Of a stretch of 64,000 nt of DNA, positions 21,905-59,533 are shown one piece after another. Location: assembly GCA_947247005.1 (NCBI GenBank), contig OX365948.1, forward strand, positions 62,001 through 126,000, written 5' to 3'. The stretch comes from Spisula solida. Taxonomy: Eukaryota; Mollusca; Bivalvia; Venerida; Mactridae. How positions within the stretch are numbered: position 1 is the first letter of the stretch; every line of letters begins with the position of its first letter. A program made the position numbers and the translations under genes. The notes below the pieces were generated by a model. That model was not told where the DNA came from, ran no database searches, and saw nothing but the letters and a program-made list of their open reading frames with translations.

Positions 21905-22522
21905 TTAGGAGTCGTCGGATTGCACAACTTCCGTTTCCGGTAATAATTGATCCACTTCCGGTATCGTTTGAAAAGGTATACCAGTTTGTTCTATTCCAAT
22001 GGTCATTGCTAGAGTCTGTGGCAGAGTGGAAAAACAGTAGAAAACTGCTGGATGTTTAAGTCCATAACAAGCTGGTTTATGTTGAGTCGTTAATTGTCGT
22101 ATAATGGACTTCTCCTCGTGTCGTGATTGTGTGAACTGCCAGGCCTGTCGAAGTGACATTCTACGTTCAGACCTATAACCGGAAGACGAGCTTAACTCGT
22201 GTGCAACACTATCATTGTCGTCTACATTATTTTTCAAACTATTTACTGTACTTTCATTGATTGTACTTTCTCGACGTGAGACCATATTCTCACTTGTTAT
22301 AGTTTTGTTGTTATTTTCTGTTTTATCGCTAGATGATTCCGTCGGCTTACAGATAAGTAACAAAGTTATCATGACATCCTTAAACTTCGTGAACAATTCT
22401 TTCCTAAATAAAATGTAAATCCATGGATCGAGTATTTGATTCAATGATGCCAATCTGAGTACGAGTAGATCTGTCTTCACGTTCACCTGACGTTCATGTA
22501 TCTGATTGATTATTATACGAAT
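21905..22522 (-). CDS. PTGER4-like: GPCR exon 2: ECL3, TM7, C-terminal tail
   Basis: Acceptor tttgcttttcag-type (gctttcag|ATTCGTATA) starts the exon in phase 0. It encodes 205 residues: IRIIINQ (end of TM6), RLASLNQILDPWIYILFR (TM7), a KELFTKF helix-8 region and a long tail. The stop TAA at 21907-21905 overlaps an AATAAA hexamer (21906-21901). Confidence 0.9.
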   Translation of the reverse strand: MRIIINQIHERQVNVKTDLLVLRLASLNQILDPWIYILFRKELFTKFKDVMITLLLICKPTESSSDKTENNNKTITSENMVSRRESTINESTVNSLKNNVDDNDSVAHELSSSSGYRSERRMSLRQAWQFTQSRHEEKSIIRQLTTQHKPACYGLKHPAVFYCFSTLPQTLAMTIGIEQTGIPFQTIPEVDQLLPETEVVQSDDS

Positions 22523-25500
22523 CTGAAAGCAAAAACAAAGATGAAAATATAAGTAAAGGTGTATCATTCATGTAACATGGGTGATCAACAAATACGCAAA
22601 CAATGCTCAGGTTTCTTTATTCCACACTCTCTATGTCTAACAGTTTCAGAACGTATTGGTACATTAATTGAACGAAAGCGGCTTTCCTACGGCAAAGGCT
22701 AATCGACAGGCAGTGGCCCTTTTCTTAATTTCTGTACGTACCATTCAAGCCTTTGTTATTTTGATTGGCTAAAGGTATATTTTCAATTATTAATTATATA
22801 GCGAGTTCTGGAGACCGTTAACATGGGCGAGCGCTACGAGGCGCTTTCCACGGGATGTAATCCATGCCTTCTATATTAAATTGAACGGGAGGTTACTGAA
22901 TAAAGGCGCTCGGAAGCGCTTTGCTTAGGCAACGGACCCCTGTCTAGCCATTCACAAAAACTTACTGAGAATGTAACGTCCTGCATTTTGATTGGCCGAT
23001 AGAAGTTCGCGCCAACATGGTCATGATGTAACGTATGTTAAGGGCAACATTTTAATGATAATTGTAGCATTTAACCGGCACAAATCCGTGTTTTTATTGG
23101 CTCCAAATGTAGTTTATATTCTAAGAATGATTAAATGCACTATATACCATGAATTAGGCACACGGTTAGTATGTAACTATGTTATATATACTGATGATGT
23201 TGGGGCGGGGTAGTCGTAGTATCGTTACGGTGTTTATGGTTTACGACCAAATATTCCCTTACATTAAATATTTTTAACGAAATGTGTAGTGATTAGTAAG
23301 TTTCAGCTATTACTCTATTGGTCATGTAACCAAATTTTCAGAGCATGTTCCTGCCTATTTGTTGATTACCCCTCATATTAATGGTACACGAAGTTCTAAG
23401 AAAATAAAAAAATGTCGTGGTGATATGACGTTTTCACAACAAACTGGCAACATTGTGGAGTCTTCATCGGAAATACATGTTGGCTTGTCAACTCCAAAAC
23501 AGTTTAAACTATGTTGCATGAATCAAATATAGGGTTAGTGATTGTGGGTCTTTTGGTAATCGTTCATTGTTACACTCTAATGGGTTTCCAGCACAATTTG
23601 AAACACAGATCTACAAACGAGTTTACATACTATTGTAATAATCTATATCACCCGGTATGCTAGTATCTATGCAAATGGTGATCTCATCTGAGCATAATAC
23701 TTAAGGACAGTCTTTGTGTTTGGTGAAATAGTATATCTGGCGTCCGCTGAGATAATATTTAGATAACAGGTCGAAATACAATATATTAAATACAAATCAT
23801 TAACTATAGCTCAATGAACACTCGAGTATGTTTTCACTGCCGGTATGTTCTTTAATTGGACAATCAAGCTTTGTAATCCTTTTGTAATACAGAAAGGGAA
23901 AATATTTATGCGAATGTTTAGCCCCAGTCACGAACGCAACTTAAGAGCTTGAACCTAAAGTTTAATCTATATATCAATATTATGATCAAATGCTCACTTT
24001 GTCCGAGTATATTTGTTTGTTATCAAAACTTGAAATATGCTCTTTTATCAGTTAATTTATTGATACACACGTATACGATAAGTGTTTAAGAGTAGTTGGA
24101 ATTAAACCAAAGAAATGAACGAACTATACAATAATATTGGGATCATACATTGTCAAACGATTATATTTTACAATGATTTCTTTTAAATATGATTTAGCCA
24201 ATATCACAACAATTTGGGATGAAACCTATCAACACATTTGGAACTAGATATACGGGTATTTATACAAGAAATTATGCATGTGTGTATTAAACGAACATGA
24301 ACGTTCCTCGTGGTCACGTGGTTAGAACACTAATTCTAAAGCACAGAAGATGCGAGTTCGCCACTTTCCAGACGAAACAACTTAAGTGGATAATGTTGTC
24401 CCTGGCTAGCTGCTCAGTGTATGAGTGTATTACTCTGACTGGTCCGCCTAGTGTTAGATTAATTTGAATTTAGTGTCAATATAAGCAAAATAATGTCGAT
24501 TTGATCAAATTGAGGAAACTGAATAAGAATGCTGACATATCTTACCAGAAATGGACACTAACACGTCGTTAAGATGACTATTATTATACACTAACATGTC
24601 GTGAAGATTGCTATCATTGTAACATGTCTTACCAGAAATGGACACTAACATGTCGTAAAGATGACTATTATTATACACTAAGAGAATTTTCCAATTAGCA
24701 ACCCGAGTAACAAATTTGGGCATGCGCAGTCGGATAACTCGGTAATGATATCAAGAACGTATCGAGTATGTATCGAGTCGAGTTCAAAATGGCGACCAAA
24801 GGTCTAGCAATTATGATGTTAAAAAAATACTTAACAACAACGAGGAGGATGACATTATGACTGAAAACAACTGTATTATGATAAACTGGCTGATATGTGC
24901 AACGAAACAAAAATGTTCCCTAAAATGTTTAGGTTAGAGATTATACGCATGCGCCTCACGCTTTCCGCCATTTTGACTCTAGAGAACCCGCGAAGGACTG
25001 GGGGTTACTTGGGTCGAGTAGGTTAGAGATTATACGCATGCGCACTGCGTTTACCCGACCCATTCCTTTTACAACTCGTGTTACTCGTGTAACCCGAGTT
25101 CGTAATTGGAAAACGCTCTAACATGTCGTGAAGATTGCTATCATTGTAACATATCTTACCAGAAATGGACACTAACATGTCGTAAAGATGACTATTATTA
25201 TACACTAACATGTCGTGAAGATTGCTATCATTGTAACATGTCGTAAAGATGGCTATTTTTTTCCACATATCTTACCAGAAATGGACACTAACATGTCGTA
25301 AAGATGACTATTATTATACACTCACATGTCGTGAAGATTGCTATCAGTGTAACATGTCTTACAAGAAATGGACACCAGCATTACGTAAAGATGCCTTATC
25401 AGAAATGGGCACCAGCATGTCGTAAAGATGGCTATTATTATCATATATCTTACCAGAAATGGACACCAGCATGTTGTAAAGATGGCTATTATTATCATAT

Positions 25501-26641
25501 ATCTTACCAGAAATGGACACCAGCATGTCGTAAAGATGGCTATTATTATCATATATCTTACCAGAAATGGGCACCAGCATGTCGTAAAGATGGCTATTAT
25601 TCCGATCATCAGTACCATCATTTGTACTTCCGTAGAATGTCGGTGGTTACATGAATTGCAATAAGAATCTTTCTTTGATTTCTTCCAAATCTTTATCAAG
25701 TCTTTTATAACAAATGAATTAGATATCACCGTTACTGTAATTGCAGATAAACCTAATAATACAAAGAAAATTGCAAACAACTTATTGTTCAACTTTCCAC
25801 TCGTAAAGGTAAAGAAGCACCAAGTACCGGGAAACTGTAACACCACTTCCCCAAAACCAATGATTGGTAGACATCCCATTATGGCGGCAAATATCCAAAT
25901 ACTTGATATTAAATATTTCACTTTTCCTATTGAAACGTAACGTTCATAGAGAAATGGTCGACATATTGAAAGATATCGTTCGATTGCCATCGAACATATG
26001 ATGGAAATTGTTGAACAAGTAGCGAAGATGAGCATAAATGACACATAATTGCACAATGGGACTCCACCGACCCATTTTAGATTATTTGCATAGACAACTA
26101 ACGTCACTGGTGAAGTAGCACATGTTCCGAATAGATCAGTACATGCTAACGCCCCAACAAGCCGGTAAAACACGGAACGTTTATGTTGACGTGAAGATCT
26201 GATCAGGACAAGGATGGCCAGTAGGTTACCAATGACTCCGGCAGTGAACATCACAGCTGGAACTGTCAATGAAATCAGTGGATCAGAGGGTTGTTCTATA
26301 GAGATGGTTGTAGTGTTGTTGTAACTGAGATCAGAGGGTTGTTCTATAGAGATGGTTGCAGTGTTGTTGTAACTGAGATCAGAGGGTTGTTCTATAGAGA
26401 TGGTTGTAGTGTTGTTGTAACTGAGATCAGAGGGTTGTTCTATAGAGATGGTTGCAGTGTTGTTGTAACTGAGATCAGAGGGTTGTTCTATAGAGATGGT
26501 TGCAGTGTTGTTGTAACTGAGATTGTTGTTTGTCATACTAGAGTAAGTCACGTGGTGAACGGGTTGATTGACATCATCTGTTACACTCCGTAATTCATGG
26601 ACCTCATCATCCAGGCTAGCGTGCGTCATCATCTGAAACAT
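21905..26641 (-). CDS. PTGER4-like: EP4-like prostanoid receptor (class A GPCR), two coding exons
   Basis: Exons 26641-25562 and 22522-21905 join in phase 0 to give 565 residues (human EP4 is 488). Seen: an N-terminal domain with five 16-residue repeats (41-120) carrying NNT sequons; TM1 with GN at 138-139; CysA at 197 and CysB at 275 inside the prostanoid signature GTWCF; ERY at 221-223 in place of DRY; TM6 about 340-360; and TM7 with RLASLNQILDPW, whose Arg383 matches the conserved ligand-carboxylate arginine. A long Ser/Thr-rich tail follows. Prostanoid receptors couple to G proteins at the plasma membrane; EP2/EP4-type raise cAMP. The intron at the end of TM6 is the family's conserved position. 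The start is taken at 26641 (A at -3); Met4/Met5 follow immediately, and a tttcag just before atgatg could instead be an acceptor. Subtype EP4 is inferred from TM2-ECL2 resemblance. Confidence 0.9.
22523..24504 (-). other. GPCR intron, unique part
   Basis: Intron sequence with no additional exon recognised. 24301-24372 resembles a tRNA D-loop and T-loop (tggtcacgtggttagaa ... gcgagttcgccac) without a foldable anticodon arm, probably the head of a tRNA-derived SINE. Confidence 0.6.
24505..25617 (-). repeat. 54-bp array containing the GPCR exon-1 end and its 5' splice site
   Basis: On the minus strand each unit carries gccatctttacgacatgctg, the CCATTTCTG|GTAAG junction and gatatatgataata. The first copy is the functional TM6 exon end. 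Intact GTAAG donors recur at 25507, 25453, 25275, 25159, 24632 and 24545; the copy near 25399 has lost GT (ctgataag). The three copies nearest the exon are almost identical and stay in frame; distal copies are decayed, shortened and interrupted by a MITE at 24682-25122. Shared exon identity shows the array grew from the exon edge outward. Confidence 0.9.
24682..25122. mobile_element. MITE, PIF/Harbinger-like, in the donor array
   Basis: TIRs gagaattttccaattagcaa and (reverse strand) gagcgttttccaattacgaa flank about 440 bp that lacks coding capacity. Both ends abut TAA, consistent with the 3-bp TWA target of PIF/Harbinger transposons. Array sequence resumes on both sides. Confidence 0.7.
25562..26641 (-). 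CDS. PTGER4-like: GPCR exon 1: N-terminus to TM6
   Basis: Encodes residues 1-360, ending ...CWCPFL, followed by a strong donor CTG|GTAAGATATATG. The donor and the last 36 nt are repeated downstream in the intron. The frame remains open past the donor only because those repeats are 54 bp (18 codons) long. Confidence 0.88.
26284..26526 (-). repeat. 48-bp coding minisatellite in the GPCR N-terminus
   Basis: Five tandem copies of a 48-bp unit encode LSYNNTATISIEQPSD, alternating with an A-to-T variant (NNTTTIS). Every copy keeps an NNT N-glycosylation sequon and the reading frame. Alternation of the two variants suggests a 96-bp duplication step. Confidence 0.92.
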
Positions 26642-36920: not shown

Positions 36921-37436
36921 TCATACTCGGACTGCCTCGAAGCGGAAGGAATAATTACCGTATGTTGTTGTTGTTCTGACTTGTGGTATAACAAGAGTGT
37001 TTTCATACCTAAAATCATATTTAGCAGTATTTAGCTTAACAAGGTCGCGGACATATATAGGTGAAATTTCATGTATACATTTGAAAGTTTCTATGGCAAT
37101 ACATTGGATTCTACTGAGGTGTAACGTAGTCATTTTGACACGTTTTAACAAGTCATCATACGAAGTATTAAAGTCTTGGAAGACAATCCTTAGGGCTCTG
37201 TATTGTAGTTTTTCAAGTTTTTCTGTGTTACCCTTACTACACAAGTGCCATACTATTGGACAGTAGTTGAAGTTAGATCTGATAAAAGTTTTAAAAATTG
37301 TTAACATAGTATTCCGTGATAAAAATTTACTCAGGCGCTGAAGAACATTCAGTTGTCTTGCAGCCTTTTTGCACATGTGGGATATCTGAGTGTCAAAGTC
37401 AAGCATATAATCAAGCTCAACCCACAGAAGCTTCAC
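36921..37436 (-). pseudogene. LINE reverse transcriptase C-terminal fragment
   Basis: About 170 codons including CKKAARQLNVLQRLSKFL, FNYCPIVWHLCSKGN and KLEKLQYRALRIVF, which match the thumb/connection region of non-LTR RTs ('NYCPxVWHxCS...IEKxQERALRxVY'-type). It is separated from the palm by frameshifts. Confidence 0.8.
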
Positions 37437-37790
37437 ATGCTCGTCGCACTTGATAGCAGAGCCGCCGACTGTAAAAGACTCAATAGCACTGTTTGCTCTT
37501 CTACCAACTGCAATGGCCTGAAACTTCTCCAGTCAATCAGGATATTACTTTCCTGTTCAAGTGTTGTTTTTAAAATGTCAATATTTGTGTGAGCATAAGA
37601 TACAGTGTTATCATCTGCATAATTATATAAGGTTGATTTATTTAAGAAGTAAAATATGTCATTAATAAAGATATTAAAAATGAGGGCCCCATTATAGAGC
37701 CTTGGGGGAAACCCTTAATAGTTTGTAGCCAGCTACTTTTAGTATGCGGTCCAAGCTTTACACATTGTTTCCGTTCGGACAGGTAGCTGC

Positions 37791-38612
37791 TTATGAGACA
37801 AATGCGTTGTCTGATAAGCCATAGGCTTTGAGCTTAAGCATTACCAGATTATGGGGGAGACAGTCAAACGCCTTTGACAGATCCATGAGAATGGCGGCAA
37901 CATACTGATTTTTGTCAAGGGCTTGTTTCCAGTCCTCGACTAGCCTCAACAGGGTTGTCTGACATCCAAATTTAACCCTGAATGCAGCCAGAAAGGGGTG
38001 AAAGATGGTGTCAAAATAAGTTGTAAGTTGGTTACTGATGGCCCGTTCATATAGTTTAGACAATGTAGGCAGGACACTGACAGGCCTATAATTTTTCCCT
38101 ATGAAGGGGTCATCTTTTTTAAATATTGGTTTAACTTGGGCAAGTTTCAGACTTTCTGGAAACCTACCCTTGTAAATTATTTGATTAGCCATATCTCGTA
38201 TAGGGGAGGTTTTTGAGCCTGCCTTAATGATTTTGGCGGGGATGGCATCCACTCCTGTGGCCTTTTTAGACTTGGGCTCTTTAATGCTCTTACATATATC
38301 TGAATCGGACACGGGGGTAAAATTGAAGTCTTTTTCAAAGGAGTGACCCGTTTCAATAGAAACTACGCTTGGGTGGGTCGCATCAGCAGGGGTGCCATCC
38401 TCTATACCAGTAGATTTGGCTATATTTACATAGAACATGTTCAATTTTTCGGCAACTTGGTTCTGGTCAGACAGAAGCAATCCTACATCGTCTTTCAGAA
38501 TAATCTGGTCATCAGACTTAGAGGTTGACTTCTGAGTCAGAAAAGGTTTGATGGTAGGCCAGAAATCCTTGAATTTCGGACCTCCATCGCACCTTTCTTT
38601 AAAATATGTCAT
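37791..38612 (-). pseudogene. LINE reverse transcriptase N-terminal/palm fragment
   Basis: About 273 codons ending at an internal stop after NAFVS. Motifs seen in order: KSKKATGVDAIPAKIIK, VKPIFKKDDPFIGKNYRPVS, LSKLYERAISNQL and LMDLSKAFDCLPH. The frame continues upstream (KKLRNLKTKVKRDS) to the solo LTR at 38662-38837 and resumes beyond it (NKTPQNWDAY). Confidence 0.88.
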
Positions 38613-38661
38613 GATTGAGTCGCGTTTAACTTTGGTTTTTAAGTTTCTAAGTTTTTTATAT

Positions 38662-38837
38662 TGTAACGGTTGTTGGGTGCATAAAGGGAGGTAATTGGAT
38701 AATTATGCACAAAGTAAACTCTGTAGGTTGTCATGAGAAAAGAATGGCATATATAAGGCCAACAAATCACCCTTAGTGGTGAGCTAGCTTTTCACTGACG
38801 GGATTTGTTGGTGTCTGTCTGTCCGGTGCACGTTACA
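38662..38837 (+). mobile_element. Solo LTR, 176 bp, inserted in the LINE
   Basis: Starts TGTAACG and ends CGTTACA, a perfect 7-bp terminal inversion with TG...CA ends, and is flanked by ATAT on both sides (38658-38661 and 38838-38841), a 4-bp target duplication. catatataaggcc at about 38750 could be the TATA box of the + orientation. Removing the LTR and one ATAT joins the LINE frame as ...NWDAY|KKLRN..., which supports insertion into a then-intact LINE. No internal retroelement sequence remains. Confidence 0.8.
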
Positions 38838-48528: not shown

Positions 48529-48600
48529 TCATTTTCGTTTGTTTTTCATTTTCTGTCTATTTGACTTTCCAGGTCTTTTATTTGCCTTATTCTTATTTCC
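48529..48600 (-). CDS. EBNA1BP2: EBP2 last exon and stop
   Basis: Acceptor ctcatttcag|GGAAAT, 23 codons GNKNKANKRPGKSNRQKMKN KRK then TGA. Matches the lysine/arginine-rich RPGKxxRxKMKN tail of EBP2. Confidence 0.93.
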   Translation of the reverse strand, partial: GNKNKANKRPGKSNRQKMKNKRK

Positions 48601-51600
48601 CTGAAATGAGTCAAAACAGAAAAATATGACATTCTGTAACAGGGAAAATGATTATGGACAACAGACGGCATATTAAGGTATAGCCCAAAATGAACATTTG
48701 GCATTTAATATCAAGCATTTTAATCGACCCACATCAAAGTAGCGTTTTATGATGCAAAATGGCAAGATTTCTATAACATCAAAGTAGGGTTTTATGTCAA
48801 GATTTCTATAACATCAAAGTAGGGTTTTATGATGCAAAATGTCAGGATTTCTATAACATCAAAGTAGGGTTTTATGATGCAAATTGTCAGGATTTCTATA
48901 ACATCAAAGTAGCATTTTATGATGCAAAATGTCAGGATTTCTATATCATATCTTCAGGATAATTAAGGTCACTGGTGCCAGAGAAACACATCAATGTATT
49001 GGTACAATCTTCAAGCAGGTTAACAATAGTTATCAGTGATTTTTTTGCCCGTTTGGGAAAGGGTCCGGTTCCGTTCAGATTGGGAATTTTTGTGTCGTGA
49101 TAACTTGAAATTGGGAAATTTCATGAAGCAGAAAGGCCAAATTAAACAGAAAAAGATATTTCATGTGACTGTTTACTGGTTTCTTTGAACTTTTATGCTT
49201 GATCTCTTGTCAAAAATGTTCATAACTTTATCATTTTACGTCCAATTTTGAATTTTTTTTTCAAATGTTCATTGGGAATTTCTCCATTCAAATTTGGGAA
49301 AATTATGTGTTTTTTGCTACTAATAAAGAAGGGAAAAAATCACTGGTTATCTTTCAACAAACTGATTCATATTCCCTGTCGAAATTGGCCAATGACCTCC
49401 CACTTTGCTGGAAGACAGTTGTGTGATACAAGGAATCTGGGTGCAATACCCTAGCACTTTCGGAATAGACACCTTGGTTCTTGAATTGAATAGATACATC
49501 AATATGTTGTAGTACAGTAGAGGCTTCAAATGATTCGAAATGCATCTGACAGCATGGAGTACAGTAGATACATTAAAATGTGACTGTATGAAGTAGAGGG
49601 TTTAAAGTCCAGTACTGGTAAGTGTTGGATGAGATATACCGGCAGTACAGACCGAACTGTATGACTAATACATGGACAGAGAGGTGGCAACTATATAAAT
49701 ATTATACATCATTGGATTTTACATTAAAATTATGGGCCACAGTAATGAACACATACATGCCAGATCTCCTGCATCATGCGTGAGTCTCACGCATTTGAGA
49801 CTCTACTCACGCACAATTGGAGGCCGATTTATCAAACCTCACATATTTCTTGGACATACTGGAACCTGACATTTTTTGTTTACATTATAAAATGATCACA
49901 AGTATTATTTTAAATTGCTTCATGAAGCATGCATGGTATCGTCATAAAGTAAAATAAGTGAAAATTGTATATAAACTTCATTAATTTGAGTTTTAAAGTT
50001 TGAGCAAGGAAAATCTCCCTCATTTTAATAAAATATCATGCATTTCCATCAACAATCTCATGTTAAGGGGCTTGTGAAACATGGCATGTATGTGAACATC
50101 AGTTGCTGCACACAAATTTAACCCACATTTAAGTAACAGTATAACAGTAAAATTCAGTGACATTGGACTGATCTGCTTTAATCTTGAGTGTAATTCAGAA
50201 GAGCAGCTTACCATTATACACAGTAAGCTGGCTTTGTCATTAGCATGGATGCAGTAAAGTTACAACTACCCAGTATTCCAGAAACTTACTTTTTTATTTT
50301 TATTCATTCCTGGTTTAGCTTGGTTTATTTTGGGATTAAATTCTGACATATCTGATGCTGTGTCCTTGTTATTTTGTTTGCTGCGTTTTTTCTGCCCACC
50401 AAAGCCATACTTATCATTCTTGTATTGACGTTTTCTGTTTGGTCTGAAAATAATATAAATGTTAAAATCACAATGTTTATCTTGGATGTATAGTCCAGAG
50501 AATTTGACATGACTCTTGACCTTTTATAAGCATAATTTAACAGCTGATATATTGTCTATATTTATAATCCCGGTTGTATGTTTTCATAAGCGGAAAGAAT
50601 CACGAAGACGCTCAAGTTGTAATACCAACACAAATCTAAACGACCGATATTGCACGAATTGCTCGCGGAAATTTATATAATCAACACAAGAACCTTGTAA
50701 TATATTCATGCATAAAGGTCAGGATCATGTCAAATTCTCTCAGCTACATTATTTACATACATAACAAGACTAAACACAGACTTGACTTTCGAAGGTTTGC
50801 AAAAATTAAATTTACTGGATAGATCATTTACAATTTGTCAGCATAGTATTGTTGTTAACTTATACTGTGCACTTACTTATTTAAAATAAAATACCACAAG
50901 TTTAAAATTGAATCTATACATTTTCAACAACAACAAGCGAAAAGAACAATTAACCACGTGAGTTTCCAGAGCATGTCCGACAAACAGATTAGACCAATTC
51001 AAATTTAGTCAGAAATGTTTGTCAGATTGTTCAGGTGCAATCTTCTACAGATAAATAGCATTCAGTGGACTGGAGTTACATTAATTCAAAGTCAACAATT
51101 GATTTTAACTGATAAATGGCAAGAATATTATAAGATACAGGCAAACTTCTACTGTATACCGTACTTCAGGATATTTTGGACATGGTTTAATTTTGGCCCT
51201 GCCCAAGTTGCAAAATTATAACTCCAAAATGTAACTGCCAAATTATTTAATATTCAATCCTATTTAAACCAATGCACCACGTCTTATAACTAACCACTAC
51301 AAACAGTCGTCTTACAGGTGGATATATACATATACACTGTCTTACAGATGGATAGATACACTGATAAACTAGCCTGAGTTGAACTTTATTGATTGTTTTT
51401 GCAGTCTGGATATAACCTCTTTAATTACATGTACAATAATGGATATAAATGTTGCTGTGTAGATTAATTGATGAAACGGATTAAACTGTTACTGATAATT
51501 CAACTGTTTAACCTTACGTGATAAATTGGTCGCTATTCTTTTCATTTCAATAGGTTTACAAATTATTTATTTTCAACAGGTAATTTATGATTTAAGTGTC

Positions 51601-54600
51601 ATTGCATTACAATAGTATAAACATGTTGATATGTTGCCGGTAATTAGGGCTTTGGAAAGGTGATTTAGAGCCATCATTATGCGTAACAATATTGACATGA
51701 AGGTTTCTGTCTATATATAATTCCGAAATTCCGAAAATTTTCGCCACCTATGCCAAGTGGCGAAAATTAAACACACAAAAATAAAATCACTACGTTTTGG
51801 GTAAAAATGGCGAACATTTGACCACACCAAAATATCCCAAATAATTGTAGTAGAAGCTTGCTGCTTGACTCGAAATTCCACCAGGTACAGGGGAAGGTAA
51901 GGTAACAGCGTGTCCTAGGTTTTCTGCTGCCGCTGTAGAATGGGATAAGAAACTGTTGTCAGCTTTCTTGTATTACAAGGTATAACAAGGGATTGTGTTT
52001 TAAGCAGATGCTAGGTTGAGAAGAAGAGGAGGGTTATGGTTGATGTACATGTTACACTTACTGTTGTGGTTTATCATGTTTCTGTCCACCGCCTCCACCT
52101 TTACTTTTACCTTTACCCGATGTCTCGTCTAGAAAATCTAACTTGTTCTTCTGACCTGTAATAACAACACAACAATATTACAACAAATCAACACACACCC
52201 GTTCTGGGGAGACTACACACACAGGGGTTCTATTGAGCCATAATGCCCAATCCTGAAAATAAGACGCCTGTCTGCTTTAGGTGCCATTAGGACACCTCCC
52301 TTAACCAAACTCTGCTTCAAACATTGCTCTATTGTTAAATTTCAGCTTATGCAACTTCAAATGGCCATAACTTAGTCAATTCTTTGAATGTTTTCATCAA
52401 ATACTTCTTTGTAAAGCATCAAATACAGAATTATAGAACGCCTGCACACATCCGTGCTGGGGAGACTACACACACCCATGCTGGGGAGACTACACACACC
52501 AGTGCTGGGGAGACTACACACACCCGTGCTGGGGAGACTACACACACCCGTGCTGGGGAGACTACACACACCCGTGCTGGGGAGACTACACACACCCGTG
52601 CTGGGGAGACTACACACACCCCTGCTGGGGAGACTACACACACCCGTGCTGGGGAGACCACACACACCCGTGCTGGAGAGACCACACACACCCATGCTGG
52701 GGAGACTACACACACCCATGCTGGGGAGACTACACACACCCATGCTGGGGAGACTACACACACCAGTGCTGGGGAGACTACACACACCCCTGCTTGGGAG
52801 ACTACACACACCCATGCTGGGGAGACCACACACACCCGTGCTGGAGAGACCACACACACCCATGCTGGGGAGACCACACACACCCATGCTGGGGAGACTA
52901 CGCACACCCGTGCTGGGGAGACTACGCACACCCGTGCTGGGGAGACTACACACACCCGTGCTGGGGAGACTACACACACCCGTGCTGGGGAGACTACACA
53001 CACCCGTGCTGGGGAGACTACACACACCCGTGCTGGGGAGACTACACACACCCCTGCTGGGGAGACCACACACACCCGTGCTGGGGAGACCACACACACC
53101 CGTGCTGGGGAGACCACACACACCCGTGCTGGGGAGACCACACACACCCGTGCTGGGGAGACCACACACACCCGTGCTGGGGAGACCACACACACCCGTG
53201 CTGGGGAGACCACACACACCCGTGCTGGGGAGACCACACACACCCGTGCTGGGGAGACCACACACACCCGTGCTGGGGAGACCACACACACCCGTGCTGG
53301 GGAGACCACACACACCCGTGCTGGGGAGACTACACACACCCGTGCTGGGCAGACTACACACACCCGTGCTGGGCAGACTACACACACCCGTGCTGGGGAG
53401 ACTACACACACCCGTGCTTGGGAGACTACACACACCCGTGCTGGGGAGACTACACACACCCGTGCTGGGGAGACTACAAACACTGGTAGGCTAGTGTTTT
53501 AGCCAGGATTTTTAAGTTAAGTTTGGAGTCCCTGTACGCTGAAGTGCCCCTTTTAGAAAAAAAATCGCCATGCCTCTTAAAAATTCCCTGCTAAAACACT
53601 ACGAGCTGATAGTAAGGCGTAACAGAAATGTTTAAAATAAGTAGAAAAAGTTTATACAAAGCACAAAGTGAGTCTCGAGAACTCAAAACTGAACAGTACA
53701 AAGTCATTCATACATTTGTATATCAAGCTATGAGTGTTTCTATTGTGTTATATATAATATTGTTTCCATGGTATGAAATATCAACCAGTACTAACTTGCT
53801 CTTCCACAATCAACAGACAACTTCTCCACATGTCGAGTACATTAACATGCCCATCGTCACAAACAATATTAACTGTCTAACCAAAGAATCCAACCTGTAT
53901 AGCTCAGATGCTTGCTAGATGGGAAGGCTTAAAATGACAAGTGCCAAGATCTATGGTATTTTGTTACTGCTAAACAGGTTTTAAAGTCAACTTTAAGAAT
54001 AAATTCATGCAAGTTCAACAAGGGATTTTGACACTAAAACATGTCTCCTACAAAGGGCCATAACTCTGGGAATATAAATCTGACCTTAACTTCATGACAA
54101 TATGCACAACTAGGCTTCGCACCAACAATTCATGTGAAGTTTCATTAAAATCAGGCCAGTGATTAATGAGAACAAGCATGGACAAACTTTGTAACAGATA
54201 TCTAGCACAAATAAATGTCTCCCACATAAAAGAACACAATGACCTGAACAAGAACCTGTTCTTAGTGTAGCATAAATAAAGAAGAAGTGAAGCTATCAAA
54301 CAAAGAATGTAATCAAACAATGAATGTAATCACCTTTTCTAAACTTCTTAACAGCATCCATCATTTCTCTCTTTTCTTTTTGTCTCTTTTGTAATACATC
54401 AATTTGTACCTGGTCAGATAGAGAAATCATATAGATAGAGGAAACAATGTAATACATCAATTTGTACCTGGTCAGATAGAGAAATCACATAGCGGTAGAT
54501 AGAGGAAACAATGTAATACATCAATTTGTACCTGGTCAGATAGAGAAATCATATAGATAGAAAAAACAATGTAATACATCAATTTGTACCTGGTCAGATA

Positions 54601-57600
54601 GAGAAATCATATAGATAGAGGAAACAATGTAATACATCAATTTGTACCTGGTCAGATAGAGAAATCATATAGATAGAAAAAACAATGTAATACATCAATT
54701 TGTACCTGGTCAGATAGAGAAATCATATAGCGGTAGATAGAGGAAACAATGTAATACATCAATTTGTACCTGGTCAGATAGAGAAATCATATAGATAGAG
54801 GAAACAATGTAATACATCAATTTGTACCTGGTCAGATAGAGAAATCATATAGATAGAAAAAACAATGTAATACATCAATTTGTACCTGGTCAGATAGAGA
54901 AATCATATAGATAGAGAAAACAATGTAATACATCAATTTGTACCTGGTCAGATAGAGAAATCATATAGATAGAAAAAACAATGTAATACATCAATTTGTA
55001 CCTGGTCAGATAGAGAAATCATATAGATAGAGGAAACAATGTAATACATCAATTTGTACCTGGTCAGATAGAGAAATCATATAGATAGAGGAAACAATGT
55101 AATACATCAATTTGTACCTGGTCAGATAGAGAAATCATATAGATAGAGAAAACAATGTAATACATCAATTTGTACCTGGTCAGATAGAGAAATCATATAG
55201 ATAGAGAAAACAATGTAATACATCAATTTGTACCTGGTCAGATAGAGAAATCATATAGATAGAGGAAAAAATGTAATACATCAATTTGTACCTGGTCAGA
55301 TAGAGAAATCATATAGATAGAGGAAACAATGAAATACATCAATTTGTACCTGGTCAGATAGAGAAATCATATAGATAGAGAAAACAATGTAATACATCAA
55401 TTTGTACCTGGTCAGATAGAGAAATCATATAGATAGAAAAAACAATGTAATACATCAATTTGTACCTGGTCAGATAGAGAAATCATATAGATAGAGGAAA
55501 CAATGTAATACATCAATTTGTACCTGGTCAGATAGAGAAATCATATAGATAGAGGAAACAATGTAATACATCAATTTGTACCTGGTCAGATAATGAAATC
55601 ATATAGATAGAGGAAACAATGTAATACATCAATTTGTACCTGGTCAGATAGAGAAATCATATAGATAGAGGAAACAATGAAATACATCAATTTGTACCTG
55701 GTCAGATAGAGAAATCATATAGATAGAGGAAACAATGTAATACATCAATTTGTACCTGGTCAGATAGAGAAATCATATAGATAGAGGAAACAATGTAATA
55801 CATCAATTTGTACCTGGTCAGATAGAGAAATCATATAGATAGAGGAAACAATGTAATACATCAATTTGTACCTGGTCAGATAGAGAAATCATATAGATTG
55901 AGGAAACAATGTAATACATCAATTTGTACCTGGTCAGATAGAGAAATCATATAGATAGAGGAAACAATGTAATACATCAATTTGTACCTGGTCAGATAGA
56001 GAAATCATATAGATAGAGGAAACAATGTAATACATCAATTTGTACCTGGTCAGATAGAGAAATCATATACCGGTAGATAGAGGAAACAATGTTATACATC
56101 AATTTGTACCTGGTCAGATAGAGAAATCATATACCGGTAGATAGAGGAAACAATGACCAGAAGTTATAACAACTCTATTCCTTGTCTACTATCTCACAGT
56201 TGAAAGTGTAATATTGCCAGTTTTTAGTAAGATGAAAATAAATCATGTAAAGAGATTTTCAATAGGAAACAAGACTGCGTTCAATAAATGATTACACCCC
56301 GGCGGAATTATTATATTATACCATATTTATATAGCACTTTTATCATGTAATTACACGTTCACAAGTGGAAGCCTTGTCCATAAAAACTAAATAAGTCAAT
56401 CAGGGGCTATAATTCTTTTCAAATGTTGGATCGTGTTACATGGCTTTGACAATGTAAAATGTTTACGGCGGTAAACAAGTATGCCAAGTTTGAAAGCAAT
56501 GCCTTATGGACTTTAATATTTGATTTTCAACAACTTGAAAATTTTGGTTAATATTTTCGGACGGACGGACGAACAAACGGACAGGGCAATCACTATATGC
56601 CTCCTGTATCAGTAGATGCAGGGGCATAAAAAATGCCCTTATTAATATCAGATTTTAATTGAACTCCACACAGTGACACATCATTATCAACAACCAGGAT
56701 TTTATTATAAAATCATGTCAAGAAAGACGGAAATTCACCAACCTTTTTCCCGTACTTTCTGAGATCTCTCAGTTTTCTAGCTTTATCACGCTGTTCAATA
56801 TTTTGTTGTTTCTCCAGTAACTTAGCTCGTACCTACCAATCAAATCAAACATCAATGTTAGACATGTGTCATCACAACAAATACATGGTTAGGTCAAAAC
56901 AAATTTGGTTGGGGAAACATGCTATTTATTTGCCTCCAGACAGACACGTCACTTGGCTTTTATGAATCCCTGGGACAGTAGCTATCCATCAAATATTTAT
57001 AAATTGTATATGGACCCTCATTTGGTGGACTCGGTGGGTTCTTTTTTAAAAATTGTCTGTAAATGGCTATTTATTGAAATTTCGAAGTCATTGACAACCT
57101 TTTTCATGTGAAAATCTGATTTGGCCATTTCAGCAAAAAAGTCGTCTGGTCTTCTTGTCTTTACACCAAGTTTATGTAACTTTGGTATTCCCACCAGAAC
57201 TGATGCCTGTGCTTGACGGTAACTGAAATATATATATATAGCATACAGTAAAATCTCAATGGTAAGACTACCGTAGGAACTCTTTAAAACTAGACACACT
57301 TAAAGTTGGGAAAAATTGGGAAATTTTAGCGCGACAATTCGCAAAATCGGAAATTCTTAACAAGAGGGCCCAAAGGGCCATAGGTCGCTCACCTGTCCTA
57401 GTATTTCATGCAGACCCCCTAATGGTAGCCTCTATTGCATGTACAAGGTTTGCATATTGTCTTATAAAGGGACCTTGTAATTTACATCACATAGACCTAA
57501 TGGCATATTCATGGGTGAAAGTTAGATATTCTGAAAAACCTGAAATCCTCAAAAACAGACAATTTATATAGGGAAATTAAAAGAAAACAAGACATTTTGT

Positions 57601-59533
57601 ACATTAAAAAACCTGAAGTTCAGGGATATGCCTGAAAACTTTCACCCATGCATATTGAAGTTTAAGCCAAGTTTTGTCTATGATTTGACCTAATGACCTA
57701 GTTTTTTACCCTAGATGACCCAATATCTAACTTCACCTAGAATATGTTACGATGATCATTGTGACTAAGTTTCATAAAGATTTAGACAAAATTGTGACCT
57801 CTACAGACTACACAAGGTTTTTCTATGATTTGACCTTGTGACCTAGTTTTTGACCCCGGATGACCCAATATCGAACTGGACCTAGATTTTGTTAAGATGA
57901 TCATTGTGACTAAGTTTCATAAAAATTTAGACAAAATTGTGACCTCTACAGACTACACAAGGTTTTTCTATGATTTGACCTTGTGACCTAGTTTTTGACC
58001 CCGGATGACCCAATATCGAACTTGACCTAGATTTTAGTTGAGATGATCATTGTGACCAAGTTTCATAAAGATGAAGTCAAAATTGTGACCTCTGCAGACT
58101 ATACACAAGGTTTTTCTATGATTTGACCTTGTGACCTAGTTTTTGACCCCGGATGACCCAATATCGAACTTGACCTAGATTTTGTTGAGATGATCATTGT
58201 GACTAAGTTTCATAATGATTATGCTAAAACTGTGACCTCTAGTGTCTACACAAGTTAATTGTGGACGGACGACGGACGGACGACGGACGAAGAGTGATCA
58301 CAAAAGCTCACTCTGTCACTTTGTGACAGGTGAGCTAAAAAGGATATTAACTGTTTATATTTTGCTTTTTTTACTGATTATACTTTTAGTCATATGTATT
58401 CACTTGATGAAAATCTATTGTTTTGACTTAAAAACATAAAGTTAGTTGCTTTTAAACAAGCAAGAACACAAGAGGGAAAATATGCATTCTTTTTGGGGAA
58501 AATTATGACTTTTTGGGGAAATTGGAGGTTATTTTGCTAGGGGAAGGTGCCTTTATAATTGGCCCTAAAAATTGCCCCAAAAAATAACTTGCACCATACC
58601 CGGTACCCGGTAACTCTGGCAATATTCATCCAACATATCATACCTGACAATATATAAAACTACAAGTCAAGTTAAATAAGAGCAGTGCATCACATAATTT
58701 ATATCCACATGTAAAAACACAACTTACAATCTTAGTTCTCGTTTGAAGTCATTATTTGCAAGATCATCCCCTTCGTCAATCATCGCTGTGCTTCCCCCGG
58801 GGTCAGGGGCCGGACCATTCGTCAGATCTAGCCGTTCAACCCAATCTAAACTTTTCTGTAGCTCAGCTAATTTCTGTTTCATGCCAGACTAAAAATATTT
58901 AAATTTACAGAAGTTAGACAACTATTGAACAAAATAATAATTTCAATTAATTTTTGACTACACAAAAATAAATTGAAAGCCTTGAGAACTTGGTTAATTG
59001 TTTTCTTTAACAAAAACAGTCCAGCAAAAAAATAATTTACAGTACATTAGTTCATAATGAACAAGTCACTAAGAATTGCAAGCAATACAGAAGTCCCCTA
59101 CCGGTTTAAAGCCATGACCTAAAATTATTTTCAATGTTTCTGTTGCCATAGCAACCACAATTTTTGTCAGAATCAAAAACATATTTAGATGGGCATAATC
59201 TCCTTATTGGCACTTACCAACATACCAAGTTTCATTAACATAGCTAGGAAACTGTTTGAGTTGTGTCAGGATCCAGATTTATGATGGAAAGACAGAGAGA
59301 CTGATGGAGGGCAAACCTATAGTCCCATCCGGTTGAAAACCAGTAGGGGACTAATTACATTCACCAAATAAACTTATTAATTAATGTATGTAAACATTCA
59401 AGTGACATAATAAAACATGCGTGACAAAAAATTAAGTAAATGCATTTACCACATTATTAATGATTTGTTTTGGTGGGGCAGCTTCATAATTCAATCCTGT
59501 CTTCAACTCTCCCCGAGCAAAGGCTCTCTGGAG
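48529..59533 (-). CDS. EBNA1BP2: EBP2 (EBNA1BP2) rRNA-processing factor, eight exons, 5' end missing
   Basis: Exons (transcript order) 59533-59450, 58888-58728, 57222-57099, 56832-56743, 54409-54334, 52155-52062, 50443-50290 and 48600-48529 total 855 nt and join without a frame break into 284 residues plus TGA. Recognised EBP2 blocks: LQRAFARGELKTGLN, LDWVERLDLT, FYRQAQASVLVGIPKLHKL, DFFAEMAKSDFHMKK, LRKYGKKVQ, KNKLDFLDE, QYKNDKYGFGGQKKRSK and NKRPGKSNRQKMKNKRK (basic tail). EBP2 is a nucleolar scaffold needed for 27S pre-rRNA processing and 60S assembly. The human protein is 306 residues, so only the acidic N-terminus (about 20-25 residues) is absent; I found no convincing first exon between 59534 and 64000. 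Introns occupy more than 90 percent of the span and carry three minisatellites and several MITEs. Confidence 0.94.
48735..48948. repeat. 45-bp tandem repeat in the last EBP2 intron
   Basis: About five copies of acatcaaagtagggttttat + gatgcaaaatgtcaggatttctata, one of them lacking the central gatgcaaaat. Confidence 0.9.
49420..49475 (-). mobile_element. Fragment of the tRNA-derived SINE
   Basis: gtgtgatacaaggaatctgg and taccctagc...ttcggaata match the body of the SINE at 62635-62685. No head or tail is recognisable. Confidence 0.65.
50290..50443 (-). CDS. EBNA1BP2: EBP2 exon: KYGFGGQKK block
   Basis: Acceptor attttcag|ACCAAAC, 51 codons with KRQYKNDKYGFGGQKKRSK, donor AAA|GTAAGTTTC, phase 0. 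Corresponds to human YKNQKFGFGGKKKGSKWN. Confidence 0.93.
52062..52155 (-). CDS. EBNA1BP2: EBP2 exon: KLDFLDE and Gly/Lys linker
   Basis: Acceptor tattacag|GTCAGAAG, encodes QKNKLDFLDETSGKGKSKG then GGGGQKHDKPQ, donor CA|GTAAGTGT (phase 2). Confidence 0.92.
52440..53490. repeat. 24-bp minisatellite, about 44 copies, EBP2 intron
   Basis: Unit ggggagactacacacacccg + tgct. Units 53060-53320 share gagaccac and are nearly identical, a recently homogenised block. Stray units at 52190-52225 lie between the array and the exon. 24 bp is a codon multiple, so every frame is open on both strands; none is a gene, because the array sits in an intron of a confirmed gene. Confidence 0.95.
54334..54409 (-). 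CDS. EBNA1BP2: EBP2 exon whose 5' edge seeded a satellite
   Basis: Acceptor ctatctgaccag|GTACAA, 25 codons plus one base VQIDVLQKRQKEKREMMDAV KKFRK(G), donor AAAG|GTGATT. The acceptor and first 19 nt of the exon are repeated about 30 times upstream. Confidence 0.92.
54391..56155 (-). repeat. 58-bp array containing an EBP2 3' splice site, about 30 copies
   Basis: On the minus strand each unit is attgtttcctctatctatat, gatttctctatctgaccag and GTACAAATTGATGTATTAC, that is a pyrimidine tract, an acceptor CAG and the first 19 nt of the exon at 54409-54334. A few units are 62 bp (ccggta/gcggta insert at about 54490, 54730, 56070 and 56130). The functional exon is the promoter-distal copy. Using any other acceptor would read VQIDVLHCFLYLYDFSI and hit TGA in tctgaccag, so those acceptors are decoys or are skipped. 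Confidence 0.93.
56400..56632. mobile_element. Interspersed repeat ending in GGGGCATAAAA
   Basis: Contains ggacggacggacgaacaaac, gcaatcactatatgcctcct and agtagatgcaggggcataaa, a phrase set I associate with an abundant mollusc repeat. It lies in an EBP2 intron. The left boundary is uncertain. Confidence 0.55.
56743..56832 (-). CDS. EBNA1BP2: EBP2 exon: coiled basic segment
   Basis: Acceptor ttggtag|GTACGA, 30 codons VRAKLLEKQQNIEQRDKARK then LRDLRKYGKK, donor AAG|GTTGGTG (weak). The junction reads RKYGKK|VQIDVL, the EBP2 signature. Confidence 0.92.
57099..57222 (-). CDS. EBNA1BP2: EBP2 exon: FYRQAQA block
   Basis: Acceptor atatttcag|TTACCG; the split codon TT|T gives Phe before YRQAQASVLVGIPKLHKLG. 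Ends AEMAKSDFHMKK with donor AAG|GTTGTC, a weak GTTGTC type. Confidence 0.93.
57360..58340 (+). mobile_element. AAGAGGGCCC element with 145-bp internal repeats, full length
   Basis: Starts aacaagagggcccaaagggc then cataggtcgctcacctgtc; ends cactttgtgacaggtgagct. gctcacctgtc/gacaggtgagc are inverted near the two ends. Inside are about four copies of a 145-bp unit (gtgacctct at 57794, 57939, 58085 and 58230) with tgaccttgtgacctag. Before the end come acggacgacggacgg and a cactctgtcactttgtgac hairpin. Architecture (short special ends plus a central tandem block) resembles Pearl/HINE-type bivalve elements; that affiliation is inference. Confidence 0.75.
58728..58888 (-). CDS. EBNA1BP2: EBP2 exon: WVERLDLT block
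   Basis: Acceptor aatatttttag|TCTGGC, donor AGATT|GTAAGTTG (phase 2). Encodes SGMKQKLAELQKSLDWVERL, an acidic stretch, then NNDFKRELR. Confidence 0.92.
59091..59352. mobile_element. 262-bp MITE in an EBP2 intron
   Basis: Termini aagtcccctaccggttt and (reverse) agtcccctactggtttt are inverted repeats. No coding capacity. The interior holds accaagtttcattaacatag and similar phrases common to mollusc repeats. Confidence 0.7.
59450..59533 (-). CDS. EBNA1BP2: EBP2 exon (first seen)
   Basis: Acceptor atatttacag|CTCCAG, 28 codons LQRAFARGELKTGLNYEAAP...NNV, donor GTG|GTAAATGC. Phase 0 at both ends. Human EBP2 has a similar AFSRGxLKPGLN block near residue 25. Confidence 0.9.

Follow-up and report, generated by a model that had tools for sequence, protein, structure and literature searches.

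A thirty-copy tandem array of a 3' splice site in the EBP2 gene of the clam Spisula solida

The 64,000-nucleotide (nt) stretch of Spisula solida DNA analysed here (the window; positions 62001-126000 of a contig that we call C5) carries on its minus strand EBP2, a ribosome-assembly gene in which one intron ends in a tandem array of 30 near-identical 3' splice sites. Seven exons were joined: exon a, the most 5' of them (58728..58888), exon b (57099..57222), exon c (56743..56832, 90 nt, acceptor TAG|GTACGA), exon d (54334..54409, 76 nt, VQIDVLQKRQKEKREMMDAVKKFRKG), exon e (52062..52155), exon f (50290..50443) and a last exon with the stop codon (48529..48600), all on the minus strand; a further 5' exon, seen by eye near 59.5 kb, is putative. 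The six introns between them all have GT-AG boundaries, and a single frame stays open to the stop codon when the last acceptor of the array is used. The 180-amino-acid (aa) joined version matches Pfam PF05890 (E 2.9e-51) and PDB chain 8fkp_SN (E 4.3e-51), named probable rRNA-processing protein EBP2, which we take to be the human protein. The gene had been called EBP2 in an earlier note made from the letters of this DNA, and both that name and the proposed upstream exon at 56743-56832, with its donor AAG|GTTGGT, are borne out. Among the best 120 of 1147 matches, the nearest named homologues are all from clams (Mactra and Ruditapes 76%, Mya 71%, Dreissena 70%), and no transcript of Spisula solida itself turned up among the matches listed. 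A search of the genome (932 Mb, 36 contigs) returned seven matches, all of them exons of this gene, and at that sensitivity revealed no second EBP2 copy and no retrocopy in which the spliced mRNA would have been preserved in fossil form.

The array occupies 54410..56155 on the minus strand, at the 3' end of the intron between exons c and d. The acceptor CCAG|GTACAAATTGATG was found by script in 30 exact copies on that strand, with first exonic bases from 56109 (the first) to 54409 (the last and true one); the 29 decoy acceptors thus run from 56109 down to 54467. The authentic boundary of exon d lies at one edge of the array and continues into the EBP2 frame, while the 5' edge falls within the intron, where a partial unit extends to 56155, the same end as in the earlier note. 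Tandem Repeats Finder (TRF) describes the same repeat as 54390-56133, with a period of 58, 29.8 copies and 95% matches. The central observation of the earlier note, that a 3' splice site of EBP2 has been amplified with the true acceptor last, is therefore upheld, and its estimate of about 30 copies of 58 bp is right for the number of acceptors and for 26 of the 29 inter-acceptor units, the other three being 64 bp long through a 6-bp insert. Each unit combines 38-44 nt of intron end with 20 nt of exon start (54390..54409 in exon d itself), so the repeat spans the exon-intron boundary; the exonic part is 20 nt and not the 19 nt first given, and GTACAAATTGATGTATTACA is exact in 27 of 30 copies. 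Variation is slight: only 7 of 58 columns vary among the 26 units of 58 bp, in which the junction CTGACCAG|GTACAAATTGATGTAT is invariant, and across the acceptors the last 18 intron bases are common to 29 of 30 and exon positions +1 to +16 to all 30, as is the exact splice signal CCAG|GTACAA. In the consensus unit, a pyrimidine tract is accompanied by a single AG and by a TTGAT that resembles a branch site; the TTGAT falls within the copied exon piece, 47 nt before the next AG. The array accounts for 1,746 of the 2,333 nt of the intron; the donor and the first 587 nt lie outside it (by TRF and by eye).

The repeated 20 nt encodes VQIDVL plus two bases. Residues V126, Q127, V130 and L131 are conserved in at least 90% of 22 aligned animal EBP2 proteins, and the aligned stretch of 8fkp_SN reads VQTEVLQ. 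Since the repeated stretch encodes conserved EBP2 residues, exon d is, on this evidence, the source of the repeat, and the reverse direction, in which the array gave rise to exon d, is ruled out by the same residues. An origin of the unit in a dispersed repeat or transposon is unsupported, the array being confined to a single locus: all 14 matches in the genome search lie inside C5:116334-118155 and no second copy was found, although the search skips very common words and so gives no proof of rarity.

The edges and internal order of the array bear on how it grew. The left flank reads GGT|CATTGTTT (GGTCATTG) and the right end TTACA|AAAG (exon side TTACAAAAG), and the junction between units, TTACATTG, has a 2-bp CA overlap with these edge sequences, which may mark the point where the first duplication joined. 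At the 5' edge, the 6-bp ACCGGT is present both in the partial unit and in the first unit; most units are without it, and ACCGCT occurs in two units close to the 3' end. Ten unit types follow one another in the order ABBCBBBDEBBFGDHGGBBFGFBIFBFJB, as would be expected from local duplications and homogenisation; the edges and the type order, as they stand in this one assembly, fit unequal exchange.

Two side observations concern the neighbouring parts of EBP2. The next intron, between exons d and e, contains an array of its own (window 52445-53483), with 43 copies of 24 bp and 96% matches, which is open in several frames on both strands (THTRAGET and others). In Mya arenaria, a predicted 'EBP2-like protein' (P0017) is missing 28 residues, a gap that opens where exon d begins and reaches into exon e; another EBP2 homologue, P0005, has these residues. 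The gap perhaps reflects skipping of an exon that starts with GT, or an error in the gene model.

All 29 decoys lead to a stop, at codon 18 in 26 cases, codon 6 in one and codon 20 in two, so that the earlier statement of a stop within 18 codons applies to 27 of them. However, 218 of 290 other EBP2 intronic AGs outside the array (counting, from the d-e intron, just the portion outside its 24-bp array) also run into a stop within 19 codons. Decoy stops are consequently no sign of design, and a purpose-built poison switch is ruled out. Since the 30 acceptors are nearly alike from -18 to +20, local sequence is hardly able to discriminate between them, and a random choice would pick the true site once in 30. 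What lies beyond the copied stretch does differ: exon d is 80% purine over +21 to +76, against 36-38% in the five decoys scored, contains 22 GAA, AGA, AAG, GAG or GGA triplets over +1 to +76, against none in those decoys, and has its own donor 76 nt downstream (AAG|GTGATT, U1 duplex -6.7 kcal/mol). Such an exon, 76 nt long, rich in purines and followed by a donor, lies behind the last acceptor only, so that exon definition is expected to act in favour of this site and is plausibly its simplest selector.

Two further arrays lie across splice boundaries of unrelated genes. The first, in the window and on the minus strand, belongs to a rhodopsin-like G-protein-coupled receptor (GPCR; PF00001, 7.4e-40 for the joined, trimmed version), and is the mirror image of the EBP2 case, a 54-bp period lying over the donor that follows transmembrane segment 6 (TM6). 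This array (25118..25601) holds five exact, strong CCATTTCTG|GTAAGATAT donors, with first intron bases at 25561, 25507, 25453, 25275 and 25159, and one variant at 25362. The exon for TM1-TM6 (25562..26632) runs from an assumed ATG to the first array donor. Joining this donor to the TM7 exon (21905..22522, acceptor TTTCAG|ATTCGT) keeps the frame open over 562 aa; use of the second or third donor would insert 18 or 36 residues without breaking the frame, and earlier stops would follow from the three farther donors (432-436 codons). Elsewhere in the genome the GPCR array has one 82% match, at C5:86535-86679 (window 24535-24679). The N-terminal part of the same exon contains a separate 48-bp coding repeat (window 26281-26523, minus strand) with five 16-residue copies (DLSYNNTATISIEQPS and variants).

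The second companion, about 390 kb from EBP2, is a 3' splice-site array of 46 bp and 8.4 copies by TRF (C5:506353-506746, L034:6353-6746). The WD40 exon at C5:506726 (L034:6726) matches WDR70 (PDB 6zym_p) at 75.9 bits over residues 1-57 of 60; two chains with many WD40 repeats outrank 6zym_p, but no single stretch of theirs reaches the threshold, and over its whole length the exon appears best explained as WDR70. Seven acceptors were found by script and an eighth (CTTTTAG) by eye. The units copy 21 nt of the exon with a few substitutions, and the six decoys that were translated stop at codons 9-12. The junction reads CAG|AACG, and there is no donor at it.

These arrays lie in DNA rich in tandem repeats. 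Minisatellites (period at least 10, at least 3 copies) cover a fraction of 0.307 of the window and 0.298 of the first Mb of C5 (20 x 10 kb), compared with 0.085 at internal positions (8 x 5 kb on five contigs; range 0 to 0.287). The EBP2 array sits in a tandem-repeat-rich region near the contig end, and the start of C5 is likely a chromosome end. We surveyed 200 kb of C5 with 82 merged arrays, excluding repeat-rich open reading frames (ORFs) and those crossing 10-kb fetch borders ahead of the counts, and scanned three sets against Pfam: (i) 84 of the 129 listed ORFs of at least 45 aa lying no more than 60 bp from an array edge, namely those of at least 55 aa; (ii) all 84 array-edge ORFs of 36-54 aa; and (iii) 98 of the 328 ORFs of at least 60 aa away from array edges. 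Transposon-like and helix-hairpin-helix matches aside, the first set returned the WD40 exon of WDR70, which has its array at the boundary, and a B-box exon, which has a repeat inside the exon, and the third a forkhead exon; the second gave nothing convincing (best E 0.023). Such a survey misses short exons, exon d having 25 codons. Three boundary arrays (EBP2 3', WDR70 3', GPCR 5') were met in about 264 kb, and we make no claim of enrichment at splice boundaries from so small a survey. Two other features were seen along the way. The B-box zinc-finger exon (L033:9391-10000) has its tandem repeat near the exon start, and open frames at window 36921-38702 on the minus strand resemble, by eye, pieces of a retrotransposon reverse transcriptase.

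We consider it probable that the EBP2 array is a minisatellite of the 'mirage' type, the name given to duplicated exon-intron boundaries in amphioxus, nearly silent through splicing and with no dedicated function. In this model, an ancestral tandem duplication of some 58-64 bp would have covered the last 38-44 nt of the c-d intron, where the pyrimidine tract and the AG lie, together with 20 nt at the start of exon d. The array would then have grown, in a region near the contig end where minisatellites abound, through slippage or unequal exchange. It would persist since splicing renders it nearly silent: exon definition would favour the last acceptor, and transcripts spliced to a decoy would meet an early stop and be degraded, or be re-spliced from the regenerated AG|GT donor. 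Membership of the mirage class is assigned by anatomy, and the silence and length instability that belong to that class are putative here.

Several points weigh against this interpretation. With 30 near-identical acceptors, 29 of them transcribed ahead of the true one, appreciable use of decoys could well occur, and use of the last acceptor is itself predicted from the intact frame and from conservation. The purine contrast is smaller at WDR70 (0.59 against 0.43-0.52, with 9 triplets against 4-7), so exon composition may not be a general discriminator. Composition was scored on five of the 29 EBP2 decoys, although the units are near-identical.

The earlier note had drawn attention to the AG|GT at each junction, of the kind used in recursive splicing, and had suggested that the array could act as a ratchet. 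In such a self-erasing ratchet, joining exon c to an early decoy would recreate AAG|GTACAA, which would be spliced to a later AG|GT, and so on until the true exon is reached, leaving the mRNA the same at any copy number. AG is indeed followed directly by GT at 30 of 30 array junctions, and re-splicing there is physically possible. Pairing of the U1 5' end with CAG|GTACAAAT is estimated at -7.1 kcal/mol, against -7.3 for the intron's own donor, a value of -7.1 or lower being attained by 5.3% of the 4226 GTs on the minus strand, and the regenerated AAG|GTACAAAT pairs at -5.6 kcal/mol; both values fall inside the range of real donors (-4.1 to -7.5 for the six EBP2 donors, -8.0 for the first GPCR donor). 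By contrast, a 5' splice-site weight matrix scores the array site at 4.4-4.6 and the donor of the c-d intron at 5.84, and places only one of the six EBP2 donors, that of the b-c intron (0.24), under the array site. That the AG|GT is special to the array is also unsupported. It occurs at three of the seven EBP2 acceptors examined, those of exons c, d and e, and so seems to have come down from the ancestral junction and not to have been added by the array. Since the WDR70 array reads CAG|AACG, AG|GT recursion is not required for arrays of this type, and because the c-d intron is short, 587 nt without the array, no ratchet is needed to remove it. Moreover, the exon junction complex is reported in PMC6224609 to hold down re-splicing at hundreds of annotated recursive-splicing (RS) exons, which speaks against iterated re-splicing at such exons. 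We therefore regard the ratchet as an unlikely account of the array. The related proposal of a splice-neutral satellite, in which AG|GT-bounded units regenerate a donor after a wrong choice, so that re-splicing corrects it and the protein is unchanged at 30 copies or more, seems to us improbable too. Put more generally, this view takes boundary minisatellites to be recurrent in the clam genome, where they would allow the choice that the spliceosome makes between near-identical sites to be studied on natural material.

Another suggestion of the earlier note was a decoy bank or length-dependent brake, in which a selected share of transcripts would be destroyed through the decoys and copy number would tune EBP2 output. 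In its favour, every one of the 29 decoys gives an early stop, and the unit contains a pyrimidine tract, a single AG and a branch-like TTGAT. Yet early stops also follow at 218 of 290 AGs elsewhere in EBP2 introns, and like arrays at unrelated genes in a minisatellite-rich neighbourhood make gene-specific selection unneeded. A regulatory function is unsupported, and we judge this account very unlikely. Least credible of all is an assembly artefact or a collapsed or expanded repeat: tandem arrays are error-prone, and the amphioxus BflGb6 mirage was apparently misassembled in a draft genome (excerpts of PMC3087553), but the ten unit types in irregular order, the sister arrays at the GPCR and WDR70 genes and the shortness of a 1.7-kb array relative to long reads, if such reads underlie the assembly, all speak against it, even if the EBP2 copy number may be imprecise.

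The interest of the EBP2 array lies in what it holds constant. Local splice-site strength is nearly the same across 30 acceptors, which makes the locus a natural experiment on the choice of the last site, with candidate selectors (exon definition, distance, branch point, re-splicing and decay of errors) that could be read from RNA. Three boundary arrays in about 264 kb suggest that mirages may accompany minisatellite-rich genomes more widely, and they may supply new splice variants and introns.

Compared with known systems, as described in excerpts of the papers cited, the EBP2 array shares with AGGT tandem-duplication intron gain of the type of Rogers (PMC4974935), and with human internal tandem repeats at exon-intron boundaries, which can generate new introns (PMC2812944), a duplication involving AG|GT. 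It differs in that the donor of its intron is unrelated to the array and the 5' portion of that intron is unique, and in that the array lengthens an intron and creates none; an origin of the c-d intron by AGGT duplication is rejected, since the intron is not made of the duplicated stretch and its donor and 587 nt lie outside the array. Recursive splice sites and RS-exons (PMC6224609, PMC10156609) resemble it in having a 3' splice site followed directly by a GT that is usable as a donor once the upstream exon has been joined, whereas the EBP2 intron is short, has many tandem near-identical sites with a donor below consensus, and is known here from sequence alone. The closest likeness is to the mirages of amphioxus, tandem duplications of exon-intron boundaries on either the 5' or the 3' side, found in Adh3 and the globins BflGb6 and BflGb9 (PMC3087553), with PGBD5 and troponin C added later (PMC3902484). 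The anatomy is alike, with boundary-spanning units that carry splice signals and the gene's own boundary at one edge. In amphioxus, Adh3 data and RT-PCR (reverse transcription PCR) of the globins indicate that splicing is apparently undisturbed, and the Adh3 mirage shows somatic length instability (PMC3087553); the EBP2 array, by comparison, is known from DNA. It also differs in lying in a bivalve, in its 30 acceptors, against six or three units in BflGb6 depending on haplotype, and in its unit of 58 bp, against 150-160 bp in BflGb6 and 10-72 bp in Adh3. Among the matches listed in our searches of open-licence PMC papers on repeats, splice boundaries and recursion, no mollusc splice-boundary repeat appeared, and 'mirages' under that name were found just in amphioxus. 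We judge the EBP2 array to be a real, large and striking case of a little-known kind, as far as we have seen in a new phylum, with at least two companions nearby.

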